DNA of 27,258 nucleotides, taken from positions 1 to 27,258 of the forward strand of contig CAKRJM010000005.1 of the NCBI GenBank assembly GCA_934351765.1, given 5' to 3'. Position 1 is the stretch's first letter. Every line of letters starts with the position of its first letter. A program made the position numbers and the translations under genes. The notes beneath the pieces were generated by a model. That model saw only the letters and a program-made list of their open reading frames with translations. It did not search any database and was not told the DNA's origin. Positions 1,046-13,938 of the stretch are shown piece after piece. The DNA comes from an uncultured Lachnospiraceae bacterium. Lineage in GTDB: Bacteria > Bacillota > Clostridia > Lachnospirales > Lachnospiraceae.

Positions 1046-1060
1046 ACAGAGGTATAAAGC

Positions 1061-1675
1061 ATGAAACAGCTCATAGAAAAGGTTCTGGATGCGCTGACAG
1101 ATGCCGGTCTTGTCGAGGTTGAGGTTTCGGCAAGACATGTTCATCTGACACAGGAGGATCTGGAGCGCCTGTTTGGGAAAGGGGCAGAGCTTCATCCGAA
1201 GCGTCCGCTTTCCCAGCCGGGACAGTTTCTCAGTGAGGAACGGGTAACGATCCGCGGACCGAAGGGAGAAAAGACCCGTGTAGCCGTTCTTGGACCGGTG
1301 CGGAAAGCAACTCAGGTAGAGCTTTCCAGGAGCGACTGTGTGGCACTTGGCGTAAAGGCTCCCATCCGGGAATCCGGTGATGTAAAAGGCTCCGCGCCCA
1401 TGACGGTCGTGGGACCGGAGGGAACCATCGAGATTTCGGAGGGAACCATCATCGCCCACAACCACATTCATGTTCCTGAGGAGACCGCAAAACGGCTGGG
1501 ACTGGCAGACAAGGAGCGGGTAAGTGTCCGGATCCTGACAGACCGGCCGGTGGTGTTTGAGGATGTGATCATCCGCGTCAGCGACAGGTTTACATTTAAG
1601 ATGCATGTGGACTTTGACGAGGCGAATGCAGCGGAGGTAAGCGGGTTTACACTGGGTCAGATTATCCGCCATTAA
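1061..1675 (+). CDS. pduL: Phosphate propanoyltransferase/phosphotransacetylase PduL (EutD-like)
   Basis: 204 residues, the usual PduL size. The enzyme converts acetyl-CoA or propionyl-CoA plus phosphate to acyl-phosphate and free CoA, recycling CoA inside the microcompartment. Family motifs are clear: VSARHVHLT near residue 21, PLSQPGQFLSEERVTIRGPKG, the zinc-binding AHNHIHV, and FKMHVDFDEANAA near the end. It is the PduL type and not the Pta-like EutD of enteric bacteria. The first 15 residues (MKQLIEKVLDALTDA) form an amphipathic helix like the encapsulation peptides that target cargo to the shell. Start has AGAGG eight bases upstream. It lies between eutT and eutJ with short gaps, so co-transcribed; in this context acetyl-CoA is the likely substrate. 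Confidence 0.93.
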   Translation: MKQLIEKVLDALTDAGLVEVEVSARHVHLTQEDLERLFGKGAELHPKRPLSQPGQFLSEERVTIRGPKGEKTRVAVLGPVRKATQVELSRSDCVALGVKAPIRESGDVKGSAPMTVVGPEGTIEISEGTIIAHNHIHVPEETAKRLGLADKERVSVRILTDRPVVFEDVIIRVSDRFTFKMHVDFDEANAAEVSGFTLGQIIRH

Positions 1676-1697
1676 GAAACAGACAAGGGGAGTTACT

Positions 1698-2522
1698 ATG
1701 GATATCAAAGCAGTGGAAGCATTCATGAAACAGGTAGGAGAGTCCGAAACAAAGACCTTTCCCCATACGGGCAGGTTAAAGACCGGACTGGATCTGGGAA
1801 CTGCCTGCATCGTTTTAGTAGTTCTGGACGAAGAAAATCGTCCGGTGGCCTGTGAGAAGCAGGCGGCCAGAGTTCTGCGGGACGGTGTGGTGGTCGATTA
1901 TTCCGGCGCGCTGAGGATCGTAAAAGAGCTGAAGGAAAAGCTGGAGGAACGGCTGGGGCAGGAGCTTGTCGAGTGCGCCATTGCCATGCCCGCCGGTACG
2001 GAGAGCAGCATAAAGACCCATCAGTATGTGGCAGAGGGAGCGGGGTTTGAGGTTACGGCAGTCCTCGATGAGCCTTCCTCCGCCAACGCGGTCTACAAGA
2101 TCGACAACGGCGTGATTGTTGATGTGGGCGGCGGAACGACGGGGCTTGCGGTGATTCATGACGGAAGAGTGGTACAGGTAGAGGACGAACCCACCGGGGG
2201 AACGCACCTCTCCCTGGTACTGGCCGGCAATTACCATATTCCCTTTGAAGAGGCGGAGCAGATTAAGCAGGATTACAGCCGGCATAAGGAAATTCTTCCG
2301 GTGCTGAAGCCGGTCGCGGAAAAGATTGCTTCGATCATTCGCCGCTATGTAAGCGGAAAGGATGTGGATACGATCTACCTGTGCGGCGGAACCTGCTGTC
2401 TGACCGGCATTGAGAAGATTATTGAAAAGGAAACCGGAATCCGGACAATCAAACCGGAGAATCCGTTCCTTGTGACTCCGGCCGGGATTGCCATGAACTG
2501 TGTCCTGGAACCGGAGAGATAG
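1698..2522 (+). CDS. eutJ: Ethanolamine utilisation protein EutJ, Hsp70/actin-like ATPase
   Basis: 274 residues, normal for EutJ. The family has the actin/Hsp70 ATPase fold without a substrate-binding domain and is thought to act as a chaperone or reactivation factor in the eut pathway; its precise job is not settled. Nucleotide-binding elements are visible: phosphate loop 1 LKTGLDLGTACIVLVVLD (from about residue 28), the VDVGGGTTGLAVI phosphate 2 loop (about residue 140) and the adenosine motif LCGGTCCLTGIE (about residue 228). Start has AAGGGGAG seven bases upstream. Sits 22 bases after pduL and 70 bases before the next eut gene. Confidence 0.92.
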   Translation: MDIKAVEAFMKQVGESETKTFPHTGRLKTGLDLGTACIVLVVLDEENRPVACEKQAARVLRDGVVVDYSGALRIVKELKEKLEERLGQELVECAIAMPAGTESSIKTHQYVAEGAGFEVTAVLDEPSSANAVYKIDNGVIVDVGGGTTGLAVIHDGRVVQVEDEPTGGTHLSLVLAGNYHIPFEEAEQIKQDYSRHKEILPVLKPVAEKIASIIRRYVSGKDVDTIYLCGGTCCLTGIEKIIEKETGIRTIKPENPFLVTPAGIAMNCVLEPER

Positions 2523-2592
2523 GAATGACTGGTAAGGGCAGGATCGGCATAAGTACGATTGCAGCGGAAAATGAGAGAAAGGAGGGGAGCAC

Positions 2593-3360
2593 ATGGACAA
2601 AGACGCGTTGGTGAGCGAAATCTGCCGCAGAGTGGAAGAAAAGCTTCAGGCGCTGGAAACCGGCACAGAGCCGGAGAACGAGGAAGAAAAGAAAGGAAAG
2701 CGAAAGCTTCTTCTTCTGACCGAGGAGCATGGGGATGCGTGTCATGAGTTTCTGAAAAACAGGGAGCTTGGAGCCTGTTTCCATGTAGAATGTGCGCTGT
2801 TGGCGGACAATCAGTGCAGGATCGATGACTACGAGGGCATTGTGGTATATACATTATCGGTCGGTGCACTGGCGAAGCTGGCAGCCGGAATCGTGGACAA
2901 TGGATTTACCGGCCTGTTTGCAGAGGCACTGTTAAAGGGAAAGAAGATTTGGCTGGTAAAAGAGGGCATTGAGCTGTGTTCATATAAAGAAACGGCAGCA
3001 CCTGCATATTATAGGCTCATGGAGGAAAAGCTGGAATTCTTAAAGGAAGCCGGCATTATCGTTGCCGCGCAGGATCAGATCCCCGGACTGATTACCGGAA
3101 GCGGGGCAGTTTGCCCGGAGGTACGATGTGCCCAGGCAGAATGCAGTAAAAATGCAGAAAAAGAAACAGATACAGCAGATGCGGGAAAAACCGGAAAAAC
3201 GGCGGTGCTTTCCAAAAAAATCATAACAGAGCGGGATATTGTTCTTCTTGCACAGGAAAAGACTGTGAAGGTCATTGTAGGAGAGCATGCAATTCTTACG
3301 GATCTTGCGAAAGAGTATGCCGCAAAGCATAAGATCGAGATCAGCAGGGATCCTGCTTAG
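2593..3360 (+). CDS. Gram-positive ethanolamine utilisation protein of unknown function (TIGR02536-like)
   Basis: 255 residues. From its position between eutJ and eutN and its sequence I place it in the eut-associated family found in Firmicutes but not in enteric eut operons (TIGR02536); the reaction is unknown. Seen: an N-terminal amphipathic helix (MDKDALVSEICRRVEEKLQ) resembling shell-targeting peptides; a charged Glu/Lys-rich linker to about residue 37; a central alpha/beta, flavoprotein-like domain (KLLLLTEEHGDAC, then a DDYEGIVVYTLSVGALAKLAAGI segment); a Cys-bearing linker; and a C-terminal module at 209-251 starting KIITERDIV and containing ILTDLAKEYAAKHKIEI. That tail resembles the first 46 residues of EutT in this operon. 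Start preceded by AAAGGAGGGG. The longer C-terminal part may be an added domain. Confidence 0.75.
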   Translation: MDKDALVSEICRRVEEKLQALETGTEPENEEEKKGKRKLLLLTEEHGDACHEFLKNRELGACFHVECALLADNQCRIDDYEGIVVYTLSVGALAKLAAGIVDNGFTGLFAEALLKGKKIWLVKEGIELCSYKETAAPAYYRLMEEKLEFLKEAGIIVAAQDQIPGLITGSGAVCPEVRCAQAECSKNAEKETDTADAGKTGKTAVLSKKIITERDIVLLAQEKTVKVIVGEHAILTDLAKEYAAKHKIEISRDPA

Positions 3361-3375
3361 AAAGGGCGGAGAACC

Positions 3376-3651
3376 ATGAAAACAGGAAAAGTGATTGGAA
3401 ATATCTGGGCAACAAGGAAGGAAGAGAAACTTGCAGGCCTGAAGCTCCTGGTGGTTCAGCCCATCAATCTCCTGAATGAAGCACCCATTGAGACGCCTGT
3501 TGTGGCTGCCGATATCATCGGGGCCGGTGTCGGAGAAAAGGTGCTTTATGTTGGCGGAAGCTCTGCGCGTGGCGCAGCCGGAAGCATGGATATTCCGGTT
3601 GACGCTACCATCGTGGGGATCGTAGACAATCAGGAGATCGTGGACGTATAA
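3376..3651 (+). CDS. eutN: Microcompartment vertex protein EutN/CcmL
   Basis: 91 residues, standard for EutN/CcmL. The family forms pentamers that cap the vertices of polyhedral microcompartments. Family features are the start MKTGKVIGNIWATRKEEKL, LKLLVVQPINL, VVAADIIGAGVGEKVLYVGGSSAR and the closing IVGIVDNQEIV. Start has AAAGGGCGGAG just upstream. It follows the previous gene by 15 bases and precedes eutH by 25, fitting one transcript. Together with the hexameric shell protein at the left edge it shows that the locus builds a closed shell and is not merely a catabolic operon. Confidence 0.95.
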   Translation: MKTGKVIGNIWATRKEEKLAGLKLLVVQPINLLNEAPIETPVVAADIIGAGVGEKVLYVGGSSARGAAGSMDIPVDATIVGIVDNQEIVDV

Positions 3652-3676
3652 AAATAACAGAGACAGGAGGAGGAAT

Positions 3677-4927
3677 ATGTTTCAGGAATTGCTTGATAAT
3701 ATTACAAACATTGATGTCCTGACAGGGAGTTTGAAAGAGTGGATTTCCAATCTTTCCATCAATTCAGTCATCATGTTCATTATGATGATTTTCATGATCG
3801 TAGGTGCGATTGACAAAATCCGCGGAAACAAACACGGATATGGTGAAAAGTTTGAAGAGGGATTTAATGCCATGGGGCCTCTGGCTCTGGCAATGGCGGG
3901 CGTTGTGGCAGCAGCACCGGTTCTGGCGATTATCCTAAAGCCGATTATCGTTCCGATCTATAAGCTGCTGGGCGCTGATCCCTCCATGTTTGCAACGACA
4001 CTGCTGGCATGCGACATGGGCGGTTATCCGCTGGCTATGGAGCTTTCCTCCAATCAGGCAGTCGGAAACTATGCCGGCCTGATTCTCGGAACCATGATGG
4101 GACCGACACTGGTATTTACGATCCCCGTTGCACTGTCGATTATTAAGAAGAAAGACCGGCCGTATCTTGGTGCAGGTGTTCTTGCCGGTATGATCACGAT
4201 TCCCATCGGCTGTATCGTCGGGGGTCTTGTCATGAACATGACCCAGTACAAGATCGGTATTGGGACGATCCTTGTAAACCTGATCCCGGTTATCATTATT
4301 GCAGGTCTTATTGTTCTCGGCCTCTGGTTCAAGCCGGGAAAGATGATCAATGGCTTTAATAAATTCGGTACCGGTGTTACGGTGGTGATCACGATTCTTA
4401 CCATGATCGCGGTATTTGAGTATCAGACCGGAATCAAGCTTCCGTTATTCAATATTATGGTAGAGCCTGACGCAGCCGGAACAATCCCGTTGGAGTCCGG
4501 ACTTTTAACCTGCGGCCAGATTGCCATTGTTCTGATCGGTGCATTCCCCATGGTACTGTGGATCACAAGAACCTTCGGAAAAGCGCTGAACGCACTGGGA
4601 AGAAAATTCGGCATGGACGAGAATGGCTCTGCCGGTCTTGTTGCAACACTGGCAAACAACATCGCCATGTTCAATATCATGGATCAGATGAATGCAAAGG
4701 GCAAGCTGCTCAACGTGGCATTTGCAGTAAGTGCGGCATTTGTATTCGGTGATCATCTTGGATTTACCGCAGGCGTAAACTCCGAAATGATTTTCCCGGT
4801 TATCGTAGGCAAGCTGGTGGCAGGTATCACCGCACTGCTTCTTGCAAACCTTCTTTCTCCCAAGCTGCTCTCCAAGGTAGAGGCGGCTGCTGAAAAAGAG
4901 GATAAGGACGGCAAGGAAGAAGCGTAA
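3677..4927 (+). CDS. eutH: Ethanolamine permease EutH
   Basis: 416 residues, typical EutH length. EutH is an inner-membrane protein that takes up ethanolamine when little of the uncharged form is present, as at low pH. The protein is almost wholly hydrophobic with about ten to eleven predicted membrane segments; recognisable stretches include GYGEKFEEGFNAMGPLALAM, LACDMGGYPLAMELS and ANNIAMFNIMDQMNAKGKLL, followed by FGDHLGFTAG, and the tail after the last helix is charged (EAAAEKEDKDGKEEA). Start chosen at the ATG preceded by AGGAGGAGG. Presence of EutH in the eut operon makes ethanolamine, and not propanediol or choline, the likely substrate of this microcompartment. Confidence 0.95.
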   Translation: MFQELLDNITNIDVLTGSLKEWISNLSINSVIMFIMMIFMIVGAIDKIRGNKHGYGEKFEEGFNAMGPLALAMAGVVAAAPVLAIILKPIIVPIYKLLGADPSMFATTLLACDMGGYPLAMELSSNQAVGNYAGLILGTMMGPTLVFTIPVALSIIKKKDRPYLGAGVLAGMITIPIGCIVGGLVMNMTQYKIGIGTILVNLIPVIIIAGLIVLGLWFKPGKMINGFNKFGTGVTVVITILTMIAVFEYQTGIKLPLFNIMVEPDAAGTIPLESGLLTCGQIAIVLIGAFPMVLWITRTFGKALNALGRKFGMDENGSAGLVATLANNIAMFNIMDQMNAKGKLLNVAFAVSAAFVFGDHLGFTAGVNSEMIFPVIVGKLVAGITALLLANLLSPKLLSKVEAAAEKEDKDGKEEA

Positions 4928-4948
4928 ACAGGCAGAAAGGAGAACGAC

Positions 4949-5383
4949 ATGAACGTAAGTGAAGAACTGATCCGCCAGGTCATTCAGAAGGTTCTTGAGG
5001 AGTCTGCGCAGGCAGGCACCGCAAAAGAGAGCTTTGAAAAACAGAAGGATCCCAGCGGAATTATTAAGATCAAGACGGATACCGTGAAGTGTGAGCCGTT
5101 CAAACAGGACGGCGTGGCGCTGAAGGATGTGGTGACACTGGAAGAAGCCCCCAGAATGGGCTGCGGCATCATGGAGCTGGATCATACAAGCTTTGAGTGG
5201 ACTCTGACCTATGATGAATATGATATGGTAATTGACGGCGTGCTGGAGATCGAGATTGATGGCCGAGTGGTAACCGGAAATCCCGGAGATATTATTTATA
5301 TTCCGAAGGATTCCCATATCCATTTCCAGACACCTGAAAAGACGAGATATGCATACTTTGTTTATCCCGCAGACTGGCAGTAG
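4949..5383 (+). CDS. eutQ: Ethanolamine utilisation protein EutQ, cupin-type (acetate kinase)
   Basis: 144 residues, shorter than the roughly 230-residue enteric EutQ, as is common in Firmicutes. It carries the EutQ cupin: MGCGIMELDHTSFEWTLTYDE, then YDMVIDGVLEIEIDGRVV and GDIIYIPKDSHIHF, about residues 70-135. Salmonella EutQ has been reported to have acetate kinase activity and to be needed for shell assembly; I infer the same here, so that with PduL it would give ATP from acetyl-phosphate. The first 19 residues (MNVSEELIRQVIQKVLEES) form an amphipathic helix like those of PduL and the 2593 gene. Start has AAAGGAG eight bases upstream. Last gene of the operon, followed eight bases later by a terminator stem. 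Confidence 0.9.
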   Translation: MNVSEELIRQVIQKVLEESAQAGTAKESFEKQKDPSGIIKIKTDTVKCEPFKQDGVALKDVVTLEEAPRMGCGIMELDHTSFEWTLTYDEYDMVIDGVLEIEIDGRVVTGNPGDIIYIPKDSHIHFQTPEKTRYAYFVYPADWQ

Positions 5384-5446: not shown

Positions 5447-6307
5447 ATGAAGCGGCATATGGAACTGCTGATGGGGATATTGCTTTTACTGGCAGTGTTC
5501 GCCTTTACCGGCCCGTTTCCCGTCTGGGAGATGGCCGGAAAACAGACAAACGGCATTCCCGTGGAAAACGGGAGAGAACAGGAGGTGGAAAACCAGAAAG
5601 AGAACGGAAGTGAAAACCGCAGAGAAGACGGGAGTGAAAGCAGTGGGGAAACCGGCGGAGCTGCGGTGGAAAACCGGGGAGAGAGCGGAGAAGCTGAAAG
5701 CAAAAACAGCGGAGATTCGCAGAAAGTCATAGTCCTTGACCCTGGCCATGGCGGTTCCGATCCGGGAAAGATCGGTGTATCCGGGACAAAGGAAAAGGAT
5801 ATCAATCTTTCTGTTACATATAAAGCAAAGGAGCTTCTGGAGCAGAACGGGATTACTGTGATACTCACAAGAGAGGCGGATCAGAGCCTTTCCGACGCCT
5901 CCGCGAAAAACAAAAAGCTCTCGGATCTGGAAGAACGCTGCCGGATCATCAACGAAAGCGGAGCGGCCTTTGCTGTAAGTATCCATCAGAACAGCTACAG
6001 CGATCCGTCTGTCCGCGGCTCCCAGGTCTTTTATTACAAAAGCTCCGCAGAAGGAAAAAAACTGGCGGAAGCGCTCCAGACCGTGTTCAACGATACCATC
6101 AGCCGGGAGAAGAACCGCCGGATCAAGGAAAATACCTCCTACTATCTTCTCATTCATGTCAAATGCCCCATCGTCATCGCCGAGTGCGGGTTTCTGAGCA
6201 ATCCGGACGAAGAACAGAAGCTGTCCGACGACGCGTATCAGGATCAGGTGGCAGAAGCACTGGCGAAGGGGATACTGGAGTATCTGGGGAAGGCAGCAGG
6301 GGAATAA
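5447..6307 (+). CDS. cwlD: N-acetylmuramoyl-L-alanine amidase, CwlD-like (Amidase_3)
   Basis: 286 residues. Amidase_3 zinc enzymes cleave the bond between muramic acid and L-alanine; CwlD does this in the spore cortex, the first step of muramic-delta-lactam formation. Residues 6-22 are a membrane or signal segment; 40-92 are a degenerate hydrophilic linker rich in Glu, Asn, Gly and Ser; the catalytic domain runs from about 93 to 282. Zinc ligands are visible as His101 in LDPGHGG, Glu116 in TKEKDIN and the His of VSIHQNS; the catalytic Glu is in IAECGFLSN. No cell-wall binding repeats. CwlD is favoured over a vegetative amidase because of the single N-terminal helix and bare domain, but this is an inference. 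ATG 5447 abuts the terminator T-run; internal starts at 5459 and 5471 have no better ribosome-binding site. Confidence 0.82.
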   Translation: MKRHMELLMGILLLLAVFAFTGPFPVWEMAGKQTNGIPVENGREQEVENQKENGSENRREDGSESSGETGGAAVENRGESGEAESKNSGDSQKVIVLDPGHGGSDPGKIGVSGTKEKDINLSVTYKAKELLEQNGITVILTREADQSLSDASAKNKKLSDLEERCRIINESGAAFAVSIHQNSYSDPSVRGSQVFYYKSSAEGKKLAEALQTVFNDTISREKNRRIKENTSYYLLIHVKCPIVIAECGFLSNPDEEQKLSDDAYQDQVAEALAKGILEYLGKAAGE

Positions 6308-6323
6308 AAGAAAATATGCTGAT

Positions 6324-6341
6324 AAATTCACGTGTGAATTT
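6324..6341. promoter_or_regulatory. Palindromic operator of the Phd-type antitoxin
   Basis: AAATTCAC (6324-6331) and GTGAATTT (6334-6341) are perfect inverted repeats around a GT centre, one base before the predicted -35 element. Phd-family antitoxins bind palindromes in their own promoter, so this is a likely autoregulation site; the assignment is inferred from position. Confidence 0.55.
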
Positions 6342-6342
6342 G

Positions 6343-6371
6343 TTGCTGTTTATGGAAATGGGGAGTACAAT
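6343..6371 (+). promoter_or_regulatory. Promoter of the antitoxin gene
   Basis: TTGCTG (6343-6348), a 17-base spacer and TACAAT (6366-6371), 20 bases before the chosen start codon at 6392. It overlaps the flank of the operator palindrome. Prediction from consensus only. Confidence 0.5.
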
Positions 6372-6391
6372 AAAGGAAAGGAGGAATGATT

Positions 6392-6649
6392 ATGCCAAAT
6401 ATAAAACCAATTTCCGATCTGAGAAATTATACCGATGTATTAAAAGAAGTCGATAGCACAAGCCGGGTATACCTGACAAGAAACGGCCATGGTGAATATG
6501 GGATTCTTACGATGGAAGAAATTGACGAACTGGATCGCTGTAAAGCAGCTTATGCGCTTCTTCTGAAATTACAGAAAGCAGAAGAAAGAGCCGAAGCCGA
6601 GGGCTGGATCGATGCCGATGAGCTGGAAAAAGAACTGGGGGCAGGGTGA
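6392..6649 (+). CDS. Type II antitoxin, Phd/YefM (prevent-host-death) family
   Basis: 85 residues from the ATG at 6392. Phd proteins bind DNA through their N-terminal fold and neutralise a RelE/ParE or Doc toxin through the C-terminus. Seen: PNIKPISDLRNYTDVLKEVD, then VYLTRNGHGEYGILTMEEID, both typical of the domain, and a charged C-terminal helix ending IDADELEKELGAG. AGGAGG (6379-6384) lies seven bases before 6392, which favours this start over the in-frame ATG at 6386. The gene has its own promoter and palindrome. Its stop overlaps by four bases the start of a very short toxin-like frame (GTGA), the usual antitoxin-toxin coupling, but the toxin is cut short. Confidence 0.85.
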   Translation: MPNIKPISDLRNYTDVLKEVDSTSRVYLTRNGHGEYGILTMEEIDELDRCKAAYALLLKLQKAEERAEAEGWIDADELEKELGAG

Positions 6650-6750
6650 ATTTGACTTACAGATTAAAATATTCCCCAGATGGCCGTCTGTGGAAGCTTT
6701 TTCGGATTCCGCTGAGAACACAGGAGAGCCTTGATTTCTGGGGAGAATAG
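6646..6750 (+). pseudogene. Remnant of a RelE/ParE-type toxin, N-terminal fragment
   Basis: A GTG-initiated frame of 34 codons overlaps the antitoxin stop by four bases. Its first residues (VNLTYRLKYSPDGR) resemble the first beta strand and helix start of RelE/ParE toxins, which are about 90-110 residues long. The reading frame then ends at TAG 6748-6750, and neither other + frame downstream continues toxin-like sequence; a convergent membrane-protein gene begins 11 bases later. I read this as a toxin truncated by deletion. The similarity is short, so a chance frame remains possible. Confidence 0.45.
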
Positions 6751-6760
6751 CCGCAGGTGT

Positions 6761-7279
6761 TCACTTCCCCAGATATACCATCAAAAGCCCCAGAAAGATA
6801 CAGCCCTGTGCAGCGCTGTTGATTCCCTGTTCGATCCAGTTGGATTTTGGATCGGAACTGTCCAGCTTTTTCGCACACCGGATCATCAGTCCCATTCCAA
6901 TGAATCCGGCCAGGAAAAACAGCCCCTGCGGCAGATGAAAAACGGCATGAACGGCACCGGAAAGCGAGCCGGCTCCGGTGAATGCAGAAAAGAAAAGTCC
7001 GGCGATGACGCCAAGCAGTCCCAGCGGCATAGCGATGCGCATCTGGACAAACAGCGGCCAGATATTCTTCTTCTGCACCGCGGCAATCAATTTCCAGATC
7101 ACCTTCAAAGCGCCGGACAGAAACATGACGGCGGCACACACCTCTACAAACAGACTCTTTACGATCATTCCCAGAAGAATACCGGTTCCCGCGAAAAATA
7201 ATACCGGAAGCGCGTCCATAAGCGCCATCGGAACCGTGAATCCCTCCGGGATCGTATCCTTAGTCATTGTCTTTTTCAT
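6761..7279 (-). CDS. Hypothetical integral membrane protein
   Basis: 172 residues on the minus strand with about five hydrophobic segments (for example MALMDALPVLFFAGTGILLG, MIVKSLFVEVCAAVMFLSGA and SGAVHAVFHLPQGLFFLAGF). I do not recognise a named family and assign no function. The start at 7279 has AGAAGGA eight bases upstream on the minus strand; the in-frame Met five codons in is less well placed. It stands alone: its 3' end converges on the toxin remnant and its 5' side faces a gene-free region with copy A of the structured repeat. Residues after the last helix are short, so the protein has almost no soluble part except a loop rich in Lys, Asp and Ser near residue 140. Confidence 0.75.
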   Translation of the reverse strand: MKKTMTKDTIPEGFTVPMALMDALPVLFFAGTGILLGMIVKSLFVEVCAAVMFLSGALKVIWKLIAAVQKKNIWPLFVQMRIAMPLGLLGVIAGLFFSAFTGAGSLSGAVHAVFHLPQGLFFLAGFIGMGLMIRCAKKLDSSDPKSNWIEQGINSAAQGCIFLGLLMVYLGK

Positions 7280-7353
7280 AAATAATGTTCCTTCTATGAT
7301 TTGATCCCATATAGTTTACCGAAAAAAAGAGGAGATGTCAAAAGCGGAGGTTG

Positions 7354-7633
7354 TCATATCGCAGATATACGCCGCCCCGGCATATTACTGCTCCGGGAGA
7401 CCGCTCTCGCTTAACCCTCGCGGCCAGCGGCACATAACCTTCGCCGGCCGCTTTCATTCCGGCTCAGGAAGTGCCGGGGCTCGGGACGTCCCCTTCGCAG
7501 TTAATATGACCGTGGCGGCTGTGCAAACAGCACATAAAGGAAATTTGATTTAGTCCATCTTACTTTGTGCATAGTGACAATCTCAATTCCTGTCCTTATT
7601 GTCCGCCACCGGCGGCAGGGAAGATTTTATAGA
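7354..7633 (+). ncRNA. Structured repeat element, copy A (candidate non-coding RNA)
   Basis: About 280 bases matching copy B at 13472-13756 in the same orientation. The outer helix pairs 7371-7391 with 7497-7519 (GCCGCC with GGCGGC, CATATTACTGC with GCAG-T-TAATATG, one C-T mismatch and one bulged A). Right after it CTGT-GCAA-ACAG forms a GNRA-loop hairpin (7519-7530). A second helix pairs GCACA (7530-7534) with TGTGC (7566-7570), competing for one base with the hairpin. A third pairs GACAAT (7576-7581) with ATTGTC (7598-7603). The enclosed 7392-7496 differs strongly from copy B apart from a shared CGGCACATA; the 3' part (7519-7633) is well conserved. Strand is inferred. A 72-codon frame at 7335-7553 overlaps it, but its start and frame are not kept in copy B. 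It lies in a gene-free region of 522 bases. Confidence 0.62.
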
Positions 7634-7801
7634 TGGAAGAAAACAAAGCCGAGTTTCGAAGTAAATCTGGCCACGGAAACAAAAGACAGATACCGACGAT
7701 TCCCCGGAAACGCAGCGCGACTCCCGTAAGAAACGGCGGTATCGGACTGTGGAAGCAGAGTGGGCTCGAGTCTTCAGAATCTTTCGCCTGTCCTCACACG
7801 C
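7634..7801. other. Rest of the gene-free region between copy A and the LysR gene
   Basis: No gene is supported here. The only structure noted is an inverted repeat, GATACCG (7689-7695) with CGGTATC (7737-7743). Bases 7745-7772 (CTGTGGAAG then GGGCTCGAG) weakly resemble the right arm of the hairpin found after copy B, so the repeat unit may extend this far; this is tentative. Confidence 0.4.
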
Positions 7802-8689
7802 CTACCACCCCATCAGCCCATTCTCTCTCGCATATGCTCTTGCCTGCTCCTGAAACTGTCTCAGAACCCGCAGATTGCTTTTATCTGTGAAAGTGTTTGT
7901 GATCATATAGGTGATTCGTTCCGGCGGCGGGCTTTCCAGCTCATAGATCTGGATAGGATAGCTTTTCATCAATTCTTTTGCGTTCTGCTCCTGAAGAATC
8001 GCCCAGTAATCGGTGTGATTCAGAAAATTTCTCATAACATCTAAGGAATCAACGGCGAAGGCATACTGGCCGGAGCCGAAGGCAGCCTGATGCCAGATGT
8101 CGAAATCATTATTCCAGACCCAGTGAATCTCCTTGGAGGGATCCAGGTCGGAGACAGAGATCTTTTTCACCGGTCCGGGGTGCTCCGCATAGCGGACGAT
8201 CCGGTAGGACTGGCGGAAGATTGGTTCGCACAGCACATGGGGATTGTCGATGACGTAGCCGACAAAGGCGATATCCAGCTCCTTGTTGGTGATCATCTGA
8301 TAGGCGGTGGTGGACTGATGGCTTTCCAGGATCATTCTGGTTCCGCTGATACGGATCTGCCGGAGGCAGATGTCAGTGACAAAGGGAACCTTCAGACTGT
8401 CGATGGAGGCGATCCGCAGGGTGTTGGAGATGGTTTCCGTCTCCTGGAAAAGCTCCTGCTGGCAGGTCAGAAGCTTCCGGGCGTTTTTTAAAAACATCTG
8501 GCCCTTATAGGTGATTTCCACCGATTTTTTCCCCGGTGTACGCCGGATCAGTTCAAAGCCCAGTTCCTCCTCCAGGGTTTTGATCCGGTTGGAGACGGCA
8601 GGCTGGGTCTTGTAGACGCGTTCGGCGGTGTGAGAGATATTTAAGGTTTCACATAAAATTACGAAGGTTTCCAGCTGCTGATAATCCAT
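7802..8689 (-). CDS. LysR-family transcriptional regulator
   Basis: 295 residues. LysR regulators bind DNA with an N-terminal winged helix and sense a small co-inducer with a C-terminal periplasmic-binding-like domain. Seen: MDYQQLETFVILCETLNISH, then TAERVYKTQPAVSNRIKTLE and ELGFELIRRTPGKKSVEIT (helix-turn-helix region, residues 1-60), and an effector domain with DIAFVGYVID. The start at 8689 is chosen because it gives the canonical LysR beginning and has AGAGAGG six bases upstream; an upstream Met at 8719 would add ten non-family residues. It is divergent from the NhaC-type gene across 204 bases that contain a perfect palindrome, so it probably controls the 8894-13370 unit in response to its substrate. 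Confidence 0.9.
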   Translation of the reverse strand: MDYQQLETFVILCETLNISHTAERVYKTQPAVSNRIKTLEEELGFELIRRTPGKKSVEITYKGQMFLKNARKLLTCQQELFQETETISNTLRIASIDSLKVPFVTDICLRQIRISGTRMILESHQSTTAYQMITNKELDIAFVGYVIDNPHVLCEPIFRQSYRIVRYAEHPGPVKKISVSDLDPSKEIHWVWNNDFDIWHQAAFGSGQYAFAVDSLDVMRNFLNHTDYWAILQEQNAKELMKSYPIQIYELESPPPERITYMITNTFTDKSNLRVLRQFQEQARAYARENGLMGW

Positions 8690-8745
8690 TTTAGACCTCT
8701 CTTTCCTGTCATGATACAAACCGTGAAAATCTATACAGGCAATTC

Positions 8746-8770
8746 AAAATATAAATGACATTTATATTTT
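8746..8770. promoter_or_regulatory. Perfect palindrome in the divergent LysR/transporter region
   Basis: AAAATATAAATG (8746-8757) and CATTTATATTTT (8759-8770) are perfect inverted repeats around one A. The site lies 17 bases upstream of the predicted -35 of the transporter promoter and 57 bases from the regulator start, a position typical for a LysR activation or autoregulation site. Confidence 0.65.
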
Positions 8771-8787
8771 ATAGAAAAATAATCAAT

Positions 8788-8817
8788 TTGTCAAAAGCAT
8801 TGCAGGCATAGTATACT
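8788..8817 (+). promoter_or_regulatory. Promoter of the transporter/aminotransferase unit
   Basis: TTGTCA (8788-8793), 18-base spacer, TATACT (8812-8817); about 76 bases before the start codon. It is just downstream of the palindrome. Consensus-based prediction. Confidence 0.6.
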
Positions 8818-8893
8818 TTTTCTATGAAACAAACTGTGCAGCGGCCGCACAGAACAAGAGGATGAAGACATATCCGGAATGGAGGTATTGTTT

Positions 8894-10255
8894 ATGGAAA
8901 AGAAGAGGATGGAGTTTTACGGAGGGATCTTTGGCGCGATCCTGCCGTTTCTTGTGATGGTAGCCATCATGATCACTCTGACGGTTACGAAAAATAACGG
9001 ATTAAAATGCTTCTGGGTTGCCGGTCTTGCCGCACTCTGCGTAAGCTTTCTCATGGCAAAGAACAAAAAAGAGGTTCATTCAATCGCTATTGATTCCCTG
9101 AGAGACCCCATGTTTTCCACCATGGTCATTATTTTCCTGCTGGCTGGCGTGCTTTCCTACATGCTCCGTGACAGCGGCCTGATCAATGGTCTGATCTGGC
9201 TTTGTACATCGCTTCATATCAACGCCGGTCTTCTTCCGGCTGCAACGTTCTTAATTTCGGTTGTCATTTCAACAGCCTGCGGAACCCAGGGCGGAACGAT
9301 CAGTACCGTAACACCGATCATGTTTCCACTGGCAGTACAGATGGGCTGCAATCCGGCGGTTATGCTGGGAGCCATCATCGGCGGCGCCATGTTCGGCGAC
9401 AATCTGGCTCCGATCTCTGATACGACCATTGCTTCTTCCGGCGCTTTTCATGCAAATGTAAAGCAGGTGGTTCAGTCCCGCCTGAAATACTCCCTGATTG
9501 CCGGAGTGATCGCGCTGGTGCTGTTCGTGATCTTCGGGCTTACGACGACCTCCGCTCATACGGCGGCTTATACTGCAGATCCGTCCTCAGCCATGACGCT
9601 GATCATGCTCATCATTCCCGTTGTCATGATCATCATGATGCTCCGGGGCGCAGAACTGGTTCCGGTTCTTCTGGTCTGCAACATCATGGCATTTGCCTTT
9701 AATGTAATCTTCGGTTTTGTTCCGCTGGCGACCATGATTACCACGGACAGCCCCATCGTAAGAGGCATGGAGGGCATGACCGGCGTTATCTTCTTTACCG
9801 TCTGGATCATGATCCAGAACGGATACCTGAAAGCAGCAGGCGTCTTTGAGGTTCTGATCGAAAAGCTTGGAAACATCTGCAAGAGCGCACGTAGTGCCGA
9901 ACTGATCTCCATGCTGGTGATTGTAGTTACCATTATGATGACCGCTTCCGGTACGGTTACCATTGTGGTTTCCGGCCCGGTTGTATATGAGCTTTTTAAG
10001 AAATTCAATATCGACCGTCACCGCGGTGCCAACTTCCTGGACGGCACTGCCTGTGGTGCAGGTGCGATCCTTCCCTGGAACAATTCGGTGCTGATCATGC
10101 TGGGCCTTGCCGTAGCAACGGAGCTGATCCCGGCTGATTATTCGCCCTTAAATTTCTTCCCGTTCTGTTTCTATTCCTTTGCACTGCTGGGCGTATACCT
10201 GATCTGTGCATTGACCGGCCTGTTTCGGAAGGAAGACGAGAAGAATTATCAGTAG
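8894..10255 (+). CDS. NhaC-family sodium-coupled antiporter
   Basis: 453 residues with about twelve membrane segments. The NhaC family includes Na+/H+ antiporters and the malate/Na+-lactate antiporter MleN, so the cargo may be an organic acid and not only protons. Family stretches: FLLAGVLSYMLRDSGLINGL, STACGTQGGTISTVTPIMFP, LGAIIGGAMFGDNLAPISDT and LDGTACGAGAILPWNNSVLI. Start at 8894 is chosen over 8879 because GGAGG (8881-8885) lies eight bases before it. First gene of a four-gene unit with two aminotransferases and an RraA-like aldolase; that context argues for uptake or exchange of an amino or hydroxy acid. Substrate unknown. Confidence 0.85.
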   Translation: MEKKRMEFYGGIFGAILPFLVMVAIMITLTVTKNNGLKCFWVAGLAALCVSFLMAKNKKEVHSIAIDSLRDPMFSTMVIIFLLAGVLSYMLRDSGLINGLIWLCTSLHINAGLLPAATFLISVVISTACGTQGGTISTVTPIMFPLAVQMGCNPAVMLGAIIGGAMFGDNLAPISDTTIASSGAFHANVKQVVQSRLKYSLIAGVIALVLFVIFGLTTTSAHTAAYTADPSSAMTLIMLIIPVVMIIMMLRGAELVPVLLVCNIMAFAFNVIFGFVPLATMITTDSPIVRGMEGMTGVIFFTVWIMIQNGYLKAAGVFEVLIEKLGNICKSARSAELISMLVIVVTIMMTASGTVTIVVSGPVVYELFKKFNIDRHRGANFLDGTACGAGAILPWNNSVLIMLGLAVATELIPADYSPLNFFPFCFYSFALLGVYLICALTGLFRKEDEKNYQ

Positions 10256-10295
10256 CATACCGTGAAAGGAACGTATAAAAGTGAGGGGAAGAATC

Positions 10296-11501
10296 ATGAA
10301 ACGAACATATCTGGACAGTGCGGCCACCAATCTGGTGGATCCGCGGGTCCTCGGCATGGCAAGGCAGTTTGTGGATCTGTACAGTGATCCGGAATTGACC
10401 ACGGCAGATGTATTCCGCATGCAGAAGCAGTCTCTGGCTGATGCAAGAAAGACCGTGGCTGAATTTTTAGGATGCGATGCGTCCGAGATTGCGCTTATGC
10501 AGAGTACCTCCCATTCGCTGGGAAGCCTGGCGGTCTCCATACCGCTTAAAAAGGGTGATAATGTTCTGGTCTGCGATCTGGAGTATCAGGCTTCGGTGGT
10601 TACCTGGCAGGCCGAGGCAGAGCGGAAGGGCTTTGAGGTGCGGCAGGTAAAAACCTCCGGAGGAAGGATCACCGCCGAGGATTTTGAAAAATACATTGAT
10701 GAACACACAAAGGTGATTCTGCTGGCGGCGGTGCAGGAGATCAACGGCTACCGTGCCGATGTGAAAAGGATCGGAGATCTGGCTCATAAACACGGAATCC
10801 TATATATTGTTGACGGGATTCAGGAAGCTGGTGCACTCCGGGTCAATGTGAAGGATCTGGGCATGGATATTTACTGTGCCGGCGGAAAGAAATGGCTGGG
10901 AAATCCGTTCGGAATGGGCTTCCTTTATATCCGAAAGGAGCTGCTGGACACGCTGAAGCCGCCGTATTATTCCTATTATGATATTCAGGTTCCGGCCAAA
11001 TTCGGGGATTATCTGGGATATCTGGAGGATCCGAGACGGCACCCCTTTGATGATTATGATCTGGTGGAGGATGCTTCGGTGTTTGAGACCGGCGGTTATG
11101 GGAATTTCCTCGGAGCCATGGGCTTAAACGAGGCGGTTCATGTGCTGATGGATATCGGCATGGATAAGGTCGAGGCTCATAATCTGGAGCTGAACCGTTA
11201 TCTGTATGACAATTTACATGCCATGGGACTGAACATGCAGAGCTCCGGGGAGGAAGCACATATGTCCTCCATCGTGGTATTTAACCTGGACGAATTGAAA
11301 AATAACTGCGTAGACCGGGAGCGGGAACTTCTCCGGTTCCTGCGGGAGCGGAATATTTTCGTGACACTGCGCTGCTCCACAGGGCTTGGCGGGATCCGGG
11401 TTTCGTTCCATCATTACACAACAAAGGAAGAGATTGATACGTTTTTAGACGCCGTAAGAGAATTTCTTGCGGATGGGCAGGAAAAGAGGGAAAGATCATG
11501 A
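10296..11501 (+). CDS. Class V aminotransferase (cysteine desulfurase-like fold)
   Basis: 401 residues. PLP enzyme of the class V group, which includes desulfurases, serine-glyoxylate aminotransferases and isopenicillin-N epimerase-like proteins. Seen: MKRTYLDSAATNLVDPRVLG at the start, LMQSTSHSLG, DLEYQASVVTWQ, YIVDGIQEAGALRVNV (PLP Asp), and the Schiff-base lysine in YCAGGKKWLGNPFG; the C-terminal domain ends LRCSTGLGGIRVSFHHYTT. There is no obvious Cys-containing desulfurase loop like that of IscS or NifS, so an aminotransferase, lyase or epimerase role is more likely. Start at 10296 is chosen over the upstream GTG at 10281 because GAGGGGAAG lies just before the ATG. Its last four bases (ATGA) overlap the next gene, indicating translational coupling. 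Confidence 0.82.
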   Translation: MKRTYLDSAATNLVDPRVLGMARQFVDLYSDPELTTADVFRMQKQSLADARKTVAEFLGCDASEIALMQSTSHSLGSLAVSIPLKKGDNVLVCDLEYQASVVTWQAEAERKGFEVRQVKTSGGRITAEDFEKYIDEHTKVILLAAVQEINGYRADVKRIGDLAHKHGILYIVDGIQEAGALRVNVKDLGMDIYCAGGKKWLGNPFGMGFLYIRKELLDTLKPPYYSYYDIQVPAKFGDYLGYLEDPRRHPFDDYDLVEDASVFETGGYGNFLGAMGLNEAVHVLMDIGMDKVEAHNLELNRYLYDNLHAMGLNMQSSGEEAHMSSIVVFNLDELKNNCVDRERELLRFLRERNIFVTLRCSTGLGGIRVSFHHYTTKEEIDTFLDAVREFLADGQEKRERS

Positions 11502-12196
11502 CAAAGCAGCCTGGTATGAGAATTGATTTATCATTTGAACGTCCGGCAAAGGAGATCGTGGAGCAGTTCCGCGATGTTCCGGCAGCTAATATTTCTGATG
11601 TCTGCGGACGTCTGTTCGGAATGGACGCACGGTTAAAGCCCATGGGAAAATGCAAGAAGATCTGCGGTGTGGCCTTGACGGTCAAGGCCGCCATTGCTGA
11701 CAACGGCATGTTCCATAAGGCCATGTCCATGGCACAGCCCGGTGATATCATCGTAGTGAATGCCTGCGGCGATACCAATCACAGCGTCTGCGGAGACGTG
11801 ATGTACCGCTATGCACAGACGAAGCAGATTGCCGGATTTGTGGTGGACGGAAGCGTGCGAGATGTGGATTATCTGCAGGAGCATGACTTCCCGGTGTACG
11901 CCGTTGGAACAACGCCCCGTGGGCCGTATAAGCATGCGCTGGGTGAGATCAACACGGATATTGCCTGCGGCGGCCAGGTGGTTCATGCTGGAGATCTCAT
12001 TGTCGGTGACGAGGACGGCCTTGTGGTTGTCCGCCGGGAGGACTGCGAAGCCGTTCTGGAAAAGCTGAAGGCGCAGTTCGACAAGGAAGCACTGATGACG
12101 AAGCTCATCGAAAGCGGAACCTGGGATACGGACTCGCCGATCCTGAAGGATCTGAACAGCCAGTTTGAGAAGCTTCATTTTGAAATCAACCAGTAA
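11498..12196 (+). CDS. RraA-like protein, putative 4-hydroxy-(4-methyl-)2-oxoglutarate aldolase / oxaloacetate decarboxylase
   Basis: 232 residues, RraA/HMG-aldolase family. Members of this divalent-metal group cleave 4-hydroxy-4-methyl-2-oxoglutarate or 4-carboxy-4-hydroxy-2-oxoadipate to pyruvate and a second oxo acid, or decarboxylate oxaloacetate; true RraA only inhibits RNase E. Seen: ANISDVCGRLFGMDARLKPM, GVALTVKAA, AQPGDIIVVNACGDTNHSVC and the signature AGFVVDGSVRDVDYL with the Arg-Asp pair of catalytic members; then GDEDGLVVVRRED. Overlaps the class V gene by four bases and is followed 13 bases later by a second aminotransferase. Flanking by two aminotransferases fits an aldolase acting on a 2-oxo acid made by transamination. 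Substrate not known. Confidence 0.82.
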   Translation: MTKQPGMRIDLSFERPAKEIVEQFRDVPAANISDVCGRLFGMDARLKPMGKCKKICGVALTVKAAIADNGMFHKAMSMAQPGDIIVVNACGDTNHSVCGDVMYRYAQTKQIAGFVVDGSVRDVDYLQEHDFPVYAVGTTPRGPYKHALGEINTDIACGGQVVHAGDLIVGDEDGLVVVRREDCEAVLEKLKAQFDKEALMTKLIESGTWDTDSPILKDLNSQFEKLHFEINQ

Positions 12197-12209
12197 GGGG
12201 GAAAAGACG

Positions 12210-13370
12210 ATGTTGGAGATCAACCATATTTTAGAGAAGGTTCCCGGCTCTGCGTCGGTGAACCTCATGGCAAAGGTAAAGGAACTGAAGGCACAGGGCG
12301 AGGACATCATCGGACTGGCAGGCGGCGAGCCGGATTTTGATACGCCGGACCGGATCCGTCTGAAAGCGGTCCAGTCCCTGACCGAGGGAAGAACTCATTA
12401 TGCGGTCGGAATCGGTCTGCCGGAGCTTCGTTCCGCTATTGCGGAGAAGTTGGAGAAGGAAAACAAGATCTGTGTCGGTGCCGACCAGATCGCGGTGACA
12501 CCGGGAGGAAAGTACGCCATCTATCTGGCGCTTGCGGCAGTGACAAACCCCGGCGACGAGGTTATGATCCTGAATCCGGCGTGGGTATCCTACGCACCGC
12601 TGGTGCGGATCTGCGGCGCAGTGCCGACGGCGGCCACCCTCAGCTATGAGACAAATTATGAGATCACCGAGGAAGCGCTGGAGCAGGCTTACACGGAAAA
12701 GACAAAGGCGGTCATCGTAAACTGCCCCAACAATCCCACCGGAAAGATCCTCTCCGAAAAAGAGGCGGATGTGCTGGAGGCCTTTGTGAAAAAGCATGAT
12801 GTGTATCTCATTTCCGATGAGGTGTATGAGCGGATCGTCTATGGAGATGCCGTAAACGTAAGCCCTGCGAGCCATGCCGATATCGCAGATCATGTGATCA
12901 CATGCAACGGATTTTCCAAGTCGGTGGCCATGACCGGCTGGAGACTGGGCTATCTGGCAGCACCGAAGCATCTGATGAAGGCCATCACCATCATGCATTC
13001 TCATACCATCACCGGCTGCAGCACCTTTATTCAGGACGCAGCTGTGGAAGCCTTCCGGTGCGGCGCGGAAATCGAAGCTATGAGAAAGCGGTATGAGATC
13101 CGCCGGGATCAGTTCATTAGCGCCCTCAACGAAATTCCGGGCGTAAACGCAAGATTTCCCGAAGGCGCATTCTACGCCTGGGTCAAGATCGAAAAGGACG
13201 GCATGAACTCCTTCGAAACCGCCGATTATCTCCTGGAAAAATGCGGCGTAATCGGCATGCCCGGTGAAGCCTACGGCTCCGGAGCCGAGCACTGCCTCCG
13301 CTTCTCCTTCGCCAACTCCGACGACGAACTGAAAGAAGCCGCAAAACGAATCAAGCAGGCACTCCTTTAA
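12210..13370 (+). CDS. Class I/II pyridoxal-phosphate aminotransferase (aspartate aminotransferase-like)
   Basis: 386 residues. Fold-type I aminotransferase of the AspC/PatA-like group. Seen: IIGLAGGEPDFDTPDRIR, THYAVGIGLPELRSAIAEKL, VIVNCPNNPTGKILS, YLISDEVYERIVYG (PLP Asp and Tyr), the Schiff-base lysine in CNGFSKSVAMTGWRLGYLA, and the substrate-carboxylate Arg region in GSGAEHCLRFSFANSD. Start at 12210 has AAGGGGGA upstream; a longer frame from 12165 overlaps the previous gene and adds non-family residues. Last gene of the LysR-controlled unit, with a terminator 37 bases after it. Amino donor and acceptor cannot be told from sequence; pyruvate or glyoxylate from the aldolase would be logical acceptors. 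Confidence 0.9.
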   Translation: MLEINHILEKVPGSASVNLMAKVKELKAQGEDIIGLAGGEPDFDTPDRIRLKAVQSLTEGRTHYAVGIGLPELRSAIAEKLEKENKICVGADQIAVTPGGKYAIYLALAAVTNPGDEVMILNPAWVSYAPLVRICGAVPTAATLSYETNYEITEEALEQAYTEKTKAVIVNCPNNPTGKILSEKEADVLEAFVKKHDVYLISDEVYERIVYGDAVNVSPASHADIADHVITCNGFSKSVAMTGWRLGYLAAPKHLMKAITIMHSHTITGCSTFIQDAAVEAFRCGAEIEAMRKRYEIRRDQFISALNEIPGVNARFPEGAFYAWVKIEKDGMNSFETADYLLEKCGVIGMPGEAYGSGAEHCLRFSFANSDDELKEAAKRIKQALL

Positions 13371-13406
13371 AATAGAATAGAAGAAACCATTTTCAAAACA
13401 GTTCAG

Positions 13407-13441
13407 AAAAGCCGGCCGTTAAACAATGAAGGTCGGCTTTT
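13407..13441 (+). terminator. Terminator after the aminotransferase unit
   Basis: AAAAGCCGGCC (13407-13417) pairs with GGTCGGCTTTT (13431-13441), eleven pairs with one G-T, loop of 13 bases. The T-run is the end of the stem; after it comes CGGCTGTT. The A-run/T-run symmetry may let it act in both directions. Confidence 0.75.
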
Positions 13442-13471
13442 CGGCTGTTAAGTAAACGTTGGCACTTTCTT

Positions 13472-13756
13472 TCATATTAAAGTATTGACGCCGCCCCGGC
13501 ATATCACTGCTTTGAAGTATTTCCCTTCGCGGCCCACCCAGGCCAGCCAACCGGCACATACTCTAGTTGCCTCTGTCTGGCCTGGGCAGTGGATCCGCGA
13601 AAGAGTGCAGATATATCCCATTCGCGGTAGATATGACCGGGGCGGCTGTGCAAACAGTATATAGAGAAAAATTTAGTCCATCTCACTTTATACATAGCGA
13701 CAACCTTAATTCCTGTCCCTTATTGTTCATCACCGGCAGCAGGGAAGATTTATAGA
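13472..13756 (+). ncRNA. Structured repeat element, copy B (candidate non-coding RNA)
   Basis: About 285 bases matching copy A at 7354-7633. The outer helix pairs 13490-13510 with 13624-13646 without mismatch in the GC part (GCCGCCCCGG with CCGGGGCGGC, one bulged A), then CATATC with GATATG and CTGC with GCGG. Then CTGT-GCAA-ACAG, as in copy A. The second helix is GTATA (13657-13661) with TATAC (13689-13693). Relative to copy A (GCACA with TGTGC) two pairs have changed on both sides; in the outer helix T-A became C-G (7386/7503 versus 13505/13630). The enclosed domain has its own helix, CCCAGGCCAG with CTGGCCTGGG, and the shared CGGCACATA. It lies between a terminator and the tsaC promoter in a gene-free region of 568 bases. 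No clear own promoter was found; a 62-codon frame at 13567-13755 is not convincing. Confidence 0.62.
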
Positions 13757-13781
13757 CGTTTAGATTTCCAGACAACTTCGA

Positions 13782-13846
13782 GAGCCTGTCCCTGCTTCCA
13801 CAGAGGCAACTTTAATATGTGCCACCTGTGGAAGTTGGGCAGGCTC
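13782..13846. other. Long imperfect hairpin between repeat copy B and tsaC
   Basis: GAGCCTGTCC (13782-13791) pairs with GGGCAGGCTC (13837-13846, one T-G), and CTTCCACAG (13795-13803) with CTGTGGAAG (13826-13834), with GGCA/TGCC near the loop: more than 20 pairs in all. There is no T-run after it on either strand, so it is not a classical terminator. It starts 25 bases after repeat copy B and may belong to it. Confidence 0.7.
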
Positions 13847-13902
13847 AAGTAAGTCCCTGAAAAAATAAAGCTTAAATCCCCCCTCCGCCGAAAAATATCT
13901 CC

Positions 13903-13931
13903 TTTTCATTTTCTCTCCAAAATGTTATACT
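13903..13931 (+). promoter_or_regulatory. Promoter of tsaC, very close to the start codon
   Basis: TTTTCA (13903-13908), 17-base spacer, TATACT (13926-13931). The start codon at 13939 is only seven bases after the -10 element, so the transcript would begin at or next to the ATG. Confidence 0.55.
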
Positions 13932-13938
13932 AGAAATT

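Follow-up and report, generated by a model that had tools for sequence, protein, structure and literature searches.

A probable new family of composite palindromic repeats represented by two covarying intergenic elements in a Lachnospiraceae genome

Introduction

The window analyzed here is a stretch of 27,258 nucleotides from an uncultured Lachnospiraceae bacterium (GenBank assembly GCA_934351765.1, contig CAKRJM010000005.1), in which two similar, hairpin-rich sequences lie between genes. An earlier note on this DNA proposed the pair as a candidate new non-coding RNA, leaving open whether it might be a regulatory RNA, a catalytic RNA or a mobile element. The question raised by the locus is what maintains the folding of these sequences, and whether they are copies of a dedicated RNA or of something that spreads. 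We conclude that they are probably copies of a new family of composite, non-coding, interspersed palindromic repeats similar to BOX, ERIC and MITE elements, and not a dedicated non-coding RNA.

Results

Copies A and B share a frame of hairpins

Copy A (7354-7633) and copy B (13472-13756) have the same orientation, lie 6.1 kb apart and are both located between long reading frames; BLAST within the window and our frame calls agreed with the earlier note on the spacing, the orientation and the gene-free sites. The two sequences match over 24 nt at 96% identity in the 5' arm and over 146 nt at 83% identity from the 3' arm on, as examined by BLAST within the window and also by MAFFT. No long reading frame common to A and B was seen by eye in the six-frame translations. 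A third hairpin follows both copies on the 3' side (A 7666-7759, B 13782-13846). Since this tail hairpin is present after both A and B, the repeat may reach ~360-400 nt if it is counted, so that the extent of ~280 nt given before describes the shared frame but possibly not the whole repeat. The features are as follows.

7371-7391, + strand: copy A, 5' arm of the outer helix, pairing with 7497-7519 at 20 of 21 positions
7392-7496, + strand: copy A, inner module, homologous to a dispersed module of genome G141 (covariance model R1 and alignment to locus L059)
7497-7519, + strand: copy A, 3' arm of the outer helix, pairing with 7371-7391
7519-7530, + strand: copy A, CTGT-GCAA-ACAG hairpin, identical in sequence in B
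7530-7570, + strand: copy A, GCACA/TGTGC helix (7530-7534/7566-7570) with conserved loop, two double changes relative to B
7571-7633, + strand: copy A, conserved 3' part of the shared frame (A/B alignment), folding not unusual
7666-7759, + strand: copy A, probable tail hairpin TCTGGCCACGG...CTGTGGAAGCAGA, from comparison with B (fold z −1.51, weak)
7802-13370: gene block between A and B, comprising a LysR regulator (− strand) and a Na+/H+ antiporter-family transporter, a class-V aminotransferase, an RraA-like protein and a class-I/II aminotransferase (+ strand)
13490-13510, + strand: copy B, 5' arm of the outer helix, 21 of 21 positions pairing with 13624-13646
13511-13623, + strand: copy B, inner domain with no detectable relation to that of A (shuffles; no R1 match at E ≤ 10)
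13624-13646, + strand: copy B, 3' arm of the outer helix, pairing with 13490-13510
13646-13657, + strand: copy B, CTGT-GCAA-ACAG hairpin, identical in sequence in A
13657-13693, + strand: copy B, GTATA/TATAC helix with conserved loop (A/B comparison, column shuffles)
13694-13756, + strand: copy B, conserved 3' part of the shared frame (A/B alignment)
13782-13846, + strand: copy B, strong tail hairpin (fold z −6.80), loop complementary to the inner domain

The outer helix, described before as about 20 pairs with a T-A to C-G and a T-A to T-G change, was confirmed with 20 of 21 positions paired in A and 21 of 21 in B; note that its pair lists were set by hand, with the bulge placed one step apart in the two copies. 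Between A and B it carries one T-A to C-G double change and one T-A to T-G change, and the single mismatch in A is paired in B. The CTGT-GCAA-ACAG hairpin with its GNRA loop was likewise found in both copies. The following helix, read previously as GCACA/TGTGC in A and GTATA/TATAC in B (13657-13661/13689-13693), indeed has two pairs changed on both sides. When the columns of the A/B alignment were shuffled 2000 times, only 4 shuffles contained any 5-bp Watson-Crick helix with at least two double changes.

The outer helix together with the inner domain is more stable than dinucleotide shuffles in both copies (z −4.07 for A and −6.95 for B), with corresponding values of −2.73 for the whole of A (7354-7640) and −7.07 for B plus its tail (13472-13860). 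The 3' part (7520-7640 and 13647-13763) is conserved in sequence but folds no better than shuffles (z −1.03 for A and +0.62 for B), and the tail hairpin is thermodynamically unusual in B (z −6.80) but not in A (z −1.51). The loop of the B tail (13800-13823) is complementary at 21 of 24 positions to 13553-13576 of the B inner domain, which was reached in none of 1000 shuffles. A kissing interaction between these loops was nevertheless dropped as a general mechanism, given that A has no counterpart (700 of 1000 shuffles).

One frame carries different inner modules, and one module sits in different frames

The earlier note regarded the enclosed domain as diverged in sequence but keeping CGGCACATA, as if this were a sign of homology. 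The best local alignment between the two inner domains is this 9-mer, and 145 of 1000 shuffles equaled or beat its score, indicating that the similarity is within chance. The inner module of A is related to sequences elsewhere. Specifically, it is 75% identical over 111 nt to a copy in non-coding DNA of G141, which is a distant Lachnospiraceae genome relative to the window (one of its proteins has named relatives in Hespellia, Muricomes/Hungatella and Mediterraneibacter, among others, at 71-74% identity), and none of 1000 shuffles reached the score of the alignment between the A module and G141 copy L059. Furthermore, a covariance model (R1) trained on 11 G141 copies but on neither A nor B scored A 7375-7522 at 57.5 bits (E = 6e-13) and did not recognize B at E ≤ 10, which suggests that the B inner domain is another module or one diverged past recognition. 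The modules are thus combined differently, A and B having a common frame with unlike inner domains, and A and G141 a common inner module with unlike frames. One frame with two inner domains and one module in different stems together constitute the behavior of a composite repeat.

The module is dispersed in G141. R1 gave 41 matches in this genome at E ≤ 0.1, 25 of them at E ≤ 2.3e-25. In the remaining 11 genomes examined, a genus mate of G141 and ten that atpD places near the window, it gave none; 150 candidates were scored in each of the 12 genomes. The 16 weaker matches include truncated copies and 67-nt short forms lacking the branched core, and one core sits in different stems among the G141 copies and A. 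The genomes nearest to the window by atpD, G395 (84% identity) and G033 (82%), are both without the module. With a G141 copy as query, 15 BLAST matches were found in G141 and none in one other searched genome of the same genus. Short palindromes at G141 loci L063, L065, L070, L075 and L080 consist of the outer arms of the module without the branched core; it is possible that they are deletion forms or an older, simpler repeat. Three of the 25 strong copies (L036, L045 and L053) are on contig C4 of G141 (62,204 bases), which is possibly a plasmid or mobile region, and 22 are on the 2.9-Mb contig C1.

In larger sets, which overlap and in which at most two candidates were scored per genome, so that absence is not proven, A matched G141 (twice, by its inner domain only) and G326 among 397 Lachnospiraceae genomes, the G141 copy matched G141 alone among 392 genomes of the order, and B matched none of 344 genomes in a search that had no known positive as control. 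The G326 match covers 24 nt with no similarity beyond and was taken as chance. Among 61 relatives, A had one weak 32-nt match (G431, E = 0.006). Against annotated plasmid records, A gave seven partial matches, the best covering 50 nt at 82% identity (E = 0.002, Novosphingobium); its module gave two partial matches in annotated phage records, B gave none there, and further searches of annotated records yielded no match. In one of these two phage-record matches of the module, 25 nt (7452-7476) are 96% identical to a Salmonella stretch annotated as GcvB RNA (E = 0.09), which was taken as chance. Exact scans with words of the frame returned 0, 3, 1 and 0 stretches in viral contigs, where similarity ended at or near the word, and 10 stretches in genome contigs, none of which matched A or B by BLAST at E ≤ 0.01; all were regarded as chance. 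Scans of viral contigs with words of the module gave one match in phage-like coding surroundings, also read as chance, and 0 and 0 thereafter. We found no description of such repeats from Lachnospiraceae in the open-license literature.

In comparison with Rfam, the window contains no match at gathering score. Relaxing the threshold to E ≤ 10 for A and B brought up only models of snoRNAs and microRNAs, all scoring well short of gathering, and 15 G141 loci yielded nothing at E ≤ 0.5. The view that no known RNA family can be assigned is thus upheld by the search of the window, both copies and these loci. The element resembles structured RNA families of Rfam in its covarying multi-helix fold and differs from them in having no match there.

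The fold of the module covaries strongly and favors neither strand clearly

Covariation was examined in 26 sequences, namely the 25 strong G141 copies and A; five weaker copies that had been fetched and 11 matches that had not were excluded. In this set, 93.6% of cells pair and 26 of 43 pairs are doubly changed, with 67 double-change cells observed against 13.8 expected. None of 500 shuffles reached the figures of the module, and a sliding-partner control gave at most 12 doubly changed pairs. Note that the alignment was fitted to a structure derived from 11 of the same sequences, so that the level of covariation is flattering, although the controls are far off. When 12 sequences were aligned separately by MAFFT and RNAalifold derived a structure from that alignment, 20 of 42 pairs were doubly changed. 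The earlier note had asked for covariation in an alignment of many copies, and it is strong. Double changes are concentrated in two helices, affecting 14 of the 16 pairs of the outer stem (helix 1) and 6 of the 8 in the apical hairpin. Most copies retain certain loop stretches, TTCG and AGRAAGT among them.

If the RNA of the + strand alone were under selection, G-T mismatches would be kept and A-C mismatches would not. Summed across the pairs, G-T accounts for 63 cells in 15 pair columns and A-C for 44 cells in 16. The outer helix has 19 A-C cells against 5 G-T cells, while the inner helices have 58 G-T cells, 38 of them from two columns, against 25 A-C cells, 13 of them from one column. Since G-T and A-C mismatches are tolerated alike, neither strand of the module stands out clearly. 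The earlier argument that paired changes reflect selection on RNA folding therefore holds for a conserved, covarying fold, without one strand being singled out.

A promoter-like site on the + strand (7273-7300) lies ~70 nt upstream of the A 5' arm, and four promoter-like sites were found on both strands of 7200-7900 against 0.7 expected; no + strand promoter-like site was found between 13300 and B. Terminator-like sites are absent at A (0.8 expected), and one weak site is inside the B tail hairpin (0.6 expected).

The G141 copies lie mostly behind gene ends

By a simple longest-frame rule, 15 of the 25 strong G141 copies are between convergent, 9 between codirectional and 1 between divergent genes. 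The control comprised gaps of at least 150 nt, called by a similar rule in 240 kb of G141 sampled at twelve places, of which 14 of 53 were convergent and 18 of 53 divergent. Copies thus show a convergent excess (Fisher, p = 0.006) and a divergent deficit (p = 0.004). The convergent fraction of the control was 0.16 to 0.24 under three other frame and gap settings; note that genes in G141 were called heuristically and that false ones may be among the small frames. The copies between codirectional genes are found in both orientations (6 and 3 of the 25).

An end word, GAGTTATAGGA, lies beside part of the copies. It was found at 13 sites in G141 against 3 for the reversed control, several of these sites lacking a full core, and an exact inverted partner was found at 0 of 13 sites within the site's own 3-kb locus, imperfect partners being seen by eye only. 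No terminal inverted repeats were recognized at A or B. With a cross-copy fraction below 0.05, flanking direct repeats were found at 2 of 25 copies (L045 and L050), which is about the chance rate, and flanking inverted repeats at 5 of 25 (L040, L047, L049, L050 and L056). The one clear, uninterrupted flanking direct repeat, of 16 nt, is that of L050, located behind dnaB. The dnaB gap of a genus mate (G400) lacks the full module and holds a hairpin-like sequence of its own, part of which resembles the module arms by eye, and is not a clean empty site. The sole transposase remnant seen beside a copy is at L016 (1558-2253, − strand); it is weakly IS1182-like, scoring 21.2 bits against a cut-off of 270. 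Its C-terminal codons run into the module copy (tail GTSTAPALPES).

The gene block between A and B

A CwlD-like amidase gene directly precedes Sua5 in all ten G395-group genomes (G395 and G401-G409) and in none of 4 more distant genomes. In the window, the amidase (5447-6307) and Sua5 (13939-15000) are 7.6 kb apart, the extra DNA being 6308-13938. The two genes adjoin in the relatives and are apart here, so that the block was gained and is flanked by A and B as direct repeats. The block is cargo between the repeats and not part of them. The transporter had no match at E ≤ 1e-90 in 61 relatives, in a search where no positive control matched, and its relatives in a protein collection are up to 94% identical. 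An empty-site test for B by means of the aminotransferase did not succeed, as this gene adjoins Sua5 in 0 of 14 genomes. In the surroundings, a small Phd/YefM-like antitoxin frame (6386-6649) scores below the Pfam cut-off and has no obvious toxin adjoining, and 227-5383 is an ethanolamine-utilization-like gene run, in which EutH was confirmed by Pfam and the other names were read from the frames.

It is very improbable that the block with the LysR regulator, transporter and aminotransferases is a small genomic island for which A and B serve as attachment or recombination sites: the block is flanked by direct repeats, 6308-13938 is extra relative to all ten G395-group genomes and the transporter is unmatched in the 61 relatives, but A and B differ by 17% in their aligned 146 nt and have unrelated inner domains, no integrase is among the five block genes scanned, the extra DNA reaches 1 kb to the left of A, and the module is dispersed elsewhere without this cargo.

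Discussion

The results above are best accounted for if A and B belong to a family of composite palindromic repeats. The frame common to both (outer helix, GCAA hairpin and conserved 3' part) carries exchangeable inner modules at its helix tip, as was found for A: in G141, the A module occurs within stems of quite another kind. The module would spread through genomes as a non-autonomous element, its folded single strand or cruciform being handled, probably, by a transposase supplied in trans. Most G141 copies stand behind the ends of genes, many of them between two convergent ones, and RNAs transcribed across them in either direction could fold there into long hairpins; at most, these hairpins may act as bidirectional 3'-end or termination structures. 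We infer the mobility; of 25 copies, one has a clear flanking duplication, and neither exact terminal inverted repeats nor a transposase were identified. Further points count against the repeat reading. Only two copies of the A/B frame were seen, both in the window, and loops are conserved in most copies, which a parasite need not show.

Known repeats provide parallels. The BOX repeats of Streptococcus (PMC3049150) are also intergenic, dispersed and hairpin-forming, with flanking and exchangeable inner modules, are confined to a few related genomes and show an excess between convergent genes, BOX-type repeats of S. pneumoniae being over-represented there; in Streptococcus suis, two BOX families have different flanking modules around the same inner module type. 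The likeness drawn here is one of architecture. The module here is ~110 nt long and has different frames in two distant genomes, and boxB modules are described as forming tandem arrays (PMC3049150). ERIC/IRU, RUP, Correia/NEMIS and YPAL, MITE-like repeats of ~100-200 bp, are described as dispersed long stem-loops (PMC2229807), as are the present copies, which are mostly intergenic; in contrast to such repeats, target duplications are not regular here, and no exact terminal inverted repeat was found, although an end word lies beside some copies. Intrinsic terminators are similar in being hairpins behind stop codons, many of them between convergent genes, but the module is far larger and branched, and the stem plus T-run pattern is absent at A and present as one weak site in the B tail hairpin.

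A new class of structured RNA, either a small RNA or a cis-acting 3'-end element whose one-strand fold is selected and whose dispersal is secondary, seems rather unlikely to us. Such a class would fit the strong covariation, the loop sequences conserved in most copies, the stability of the outer helix with the inner domain (z −4.07 and −6.95), the 75% identity over 111 nt between the A module and a non-coding G141 copy and the promoter-like site ~70 nt before A (7273-7300, + strand). An overall strand bias in wobbles is absent, however, the G-T excess of the inner helices resting on few columns, and the inner domains of A and B are unrelated, no + strand promoter-like site lies between 13300 and B, and copies between codirectional genes point either way (6 and 3 of 25). 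The proposal of a new non-coding RNA is therefore borne out as regards the covarying fold and the lack of an Rfam match, but the dispersed and truncated copies, the convergent sites and the tolerance of mismatches speak against it. Of the three readings put forward before, the mobile element is the best supported.

An unlikely, more specific idea is that the inner module is a self-contained structured unit and homes to the tips of existing DNA hairpins: it would land in the loop of a terminator or another repeat, whose arms would then close it; this would account for one core in many unrelated stems and for the difference between A and B at a shared helix tip.

We assign a still lower probability to palindromes matched by DNA template switching, that is, quasi-palindrome correction with no selection on RNA or transposition. 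In the cited text, this process is proposed both as a source of hairpin stems and as a means of keeping them, with compensatory changes (PMC8794818), and the outermost arms do vary from copy to copy while still pairing, with 14 of 16 helix 1 pairs doubly changed. Template switching should, however, erase internal loops, yet TTCG and AGRAAGT are kept in most copies, and it leaves the dispersal unexplained; moreover, the evidence for its maintaining short stems is called circumstantial in the same text (PMC8794818).

Returning to the composite repeat, its folding is clearly maintained, the reason possibly being transposition, 3'-end function or palindrome repair, and the set of copies might serve to separate selection for folding from palindrome repair by template switching. 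The case is also a warning that even strong covariation does not by itself make a repeat a functional RNA. If our reading is correct, Lachnospiraceae would harbor a repeat family that covaries with unusual clarity and exchanges modules between distant genomes.
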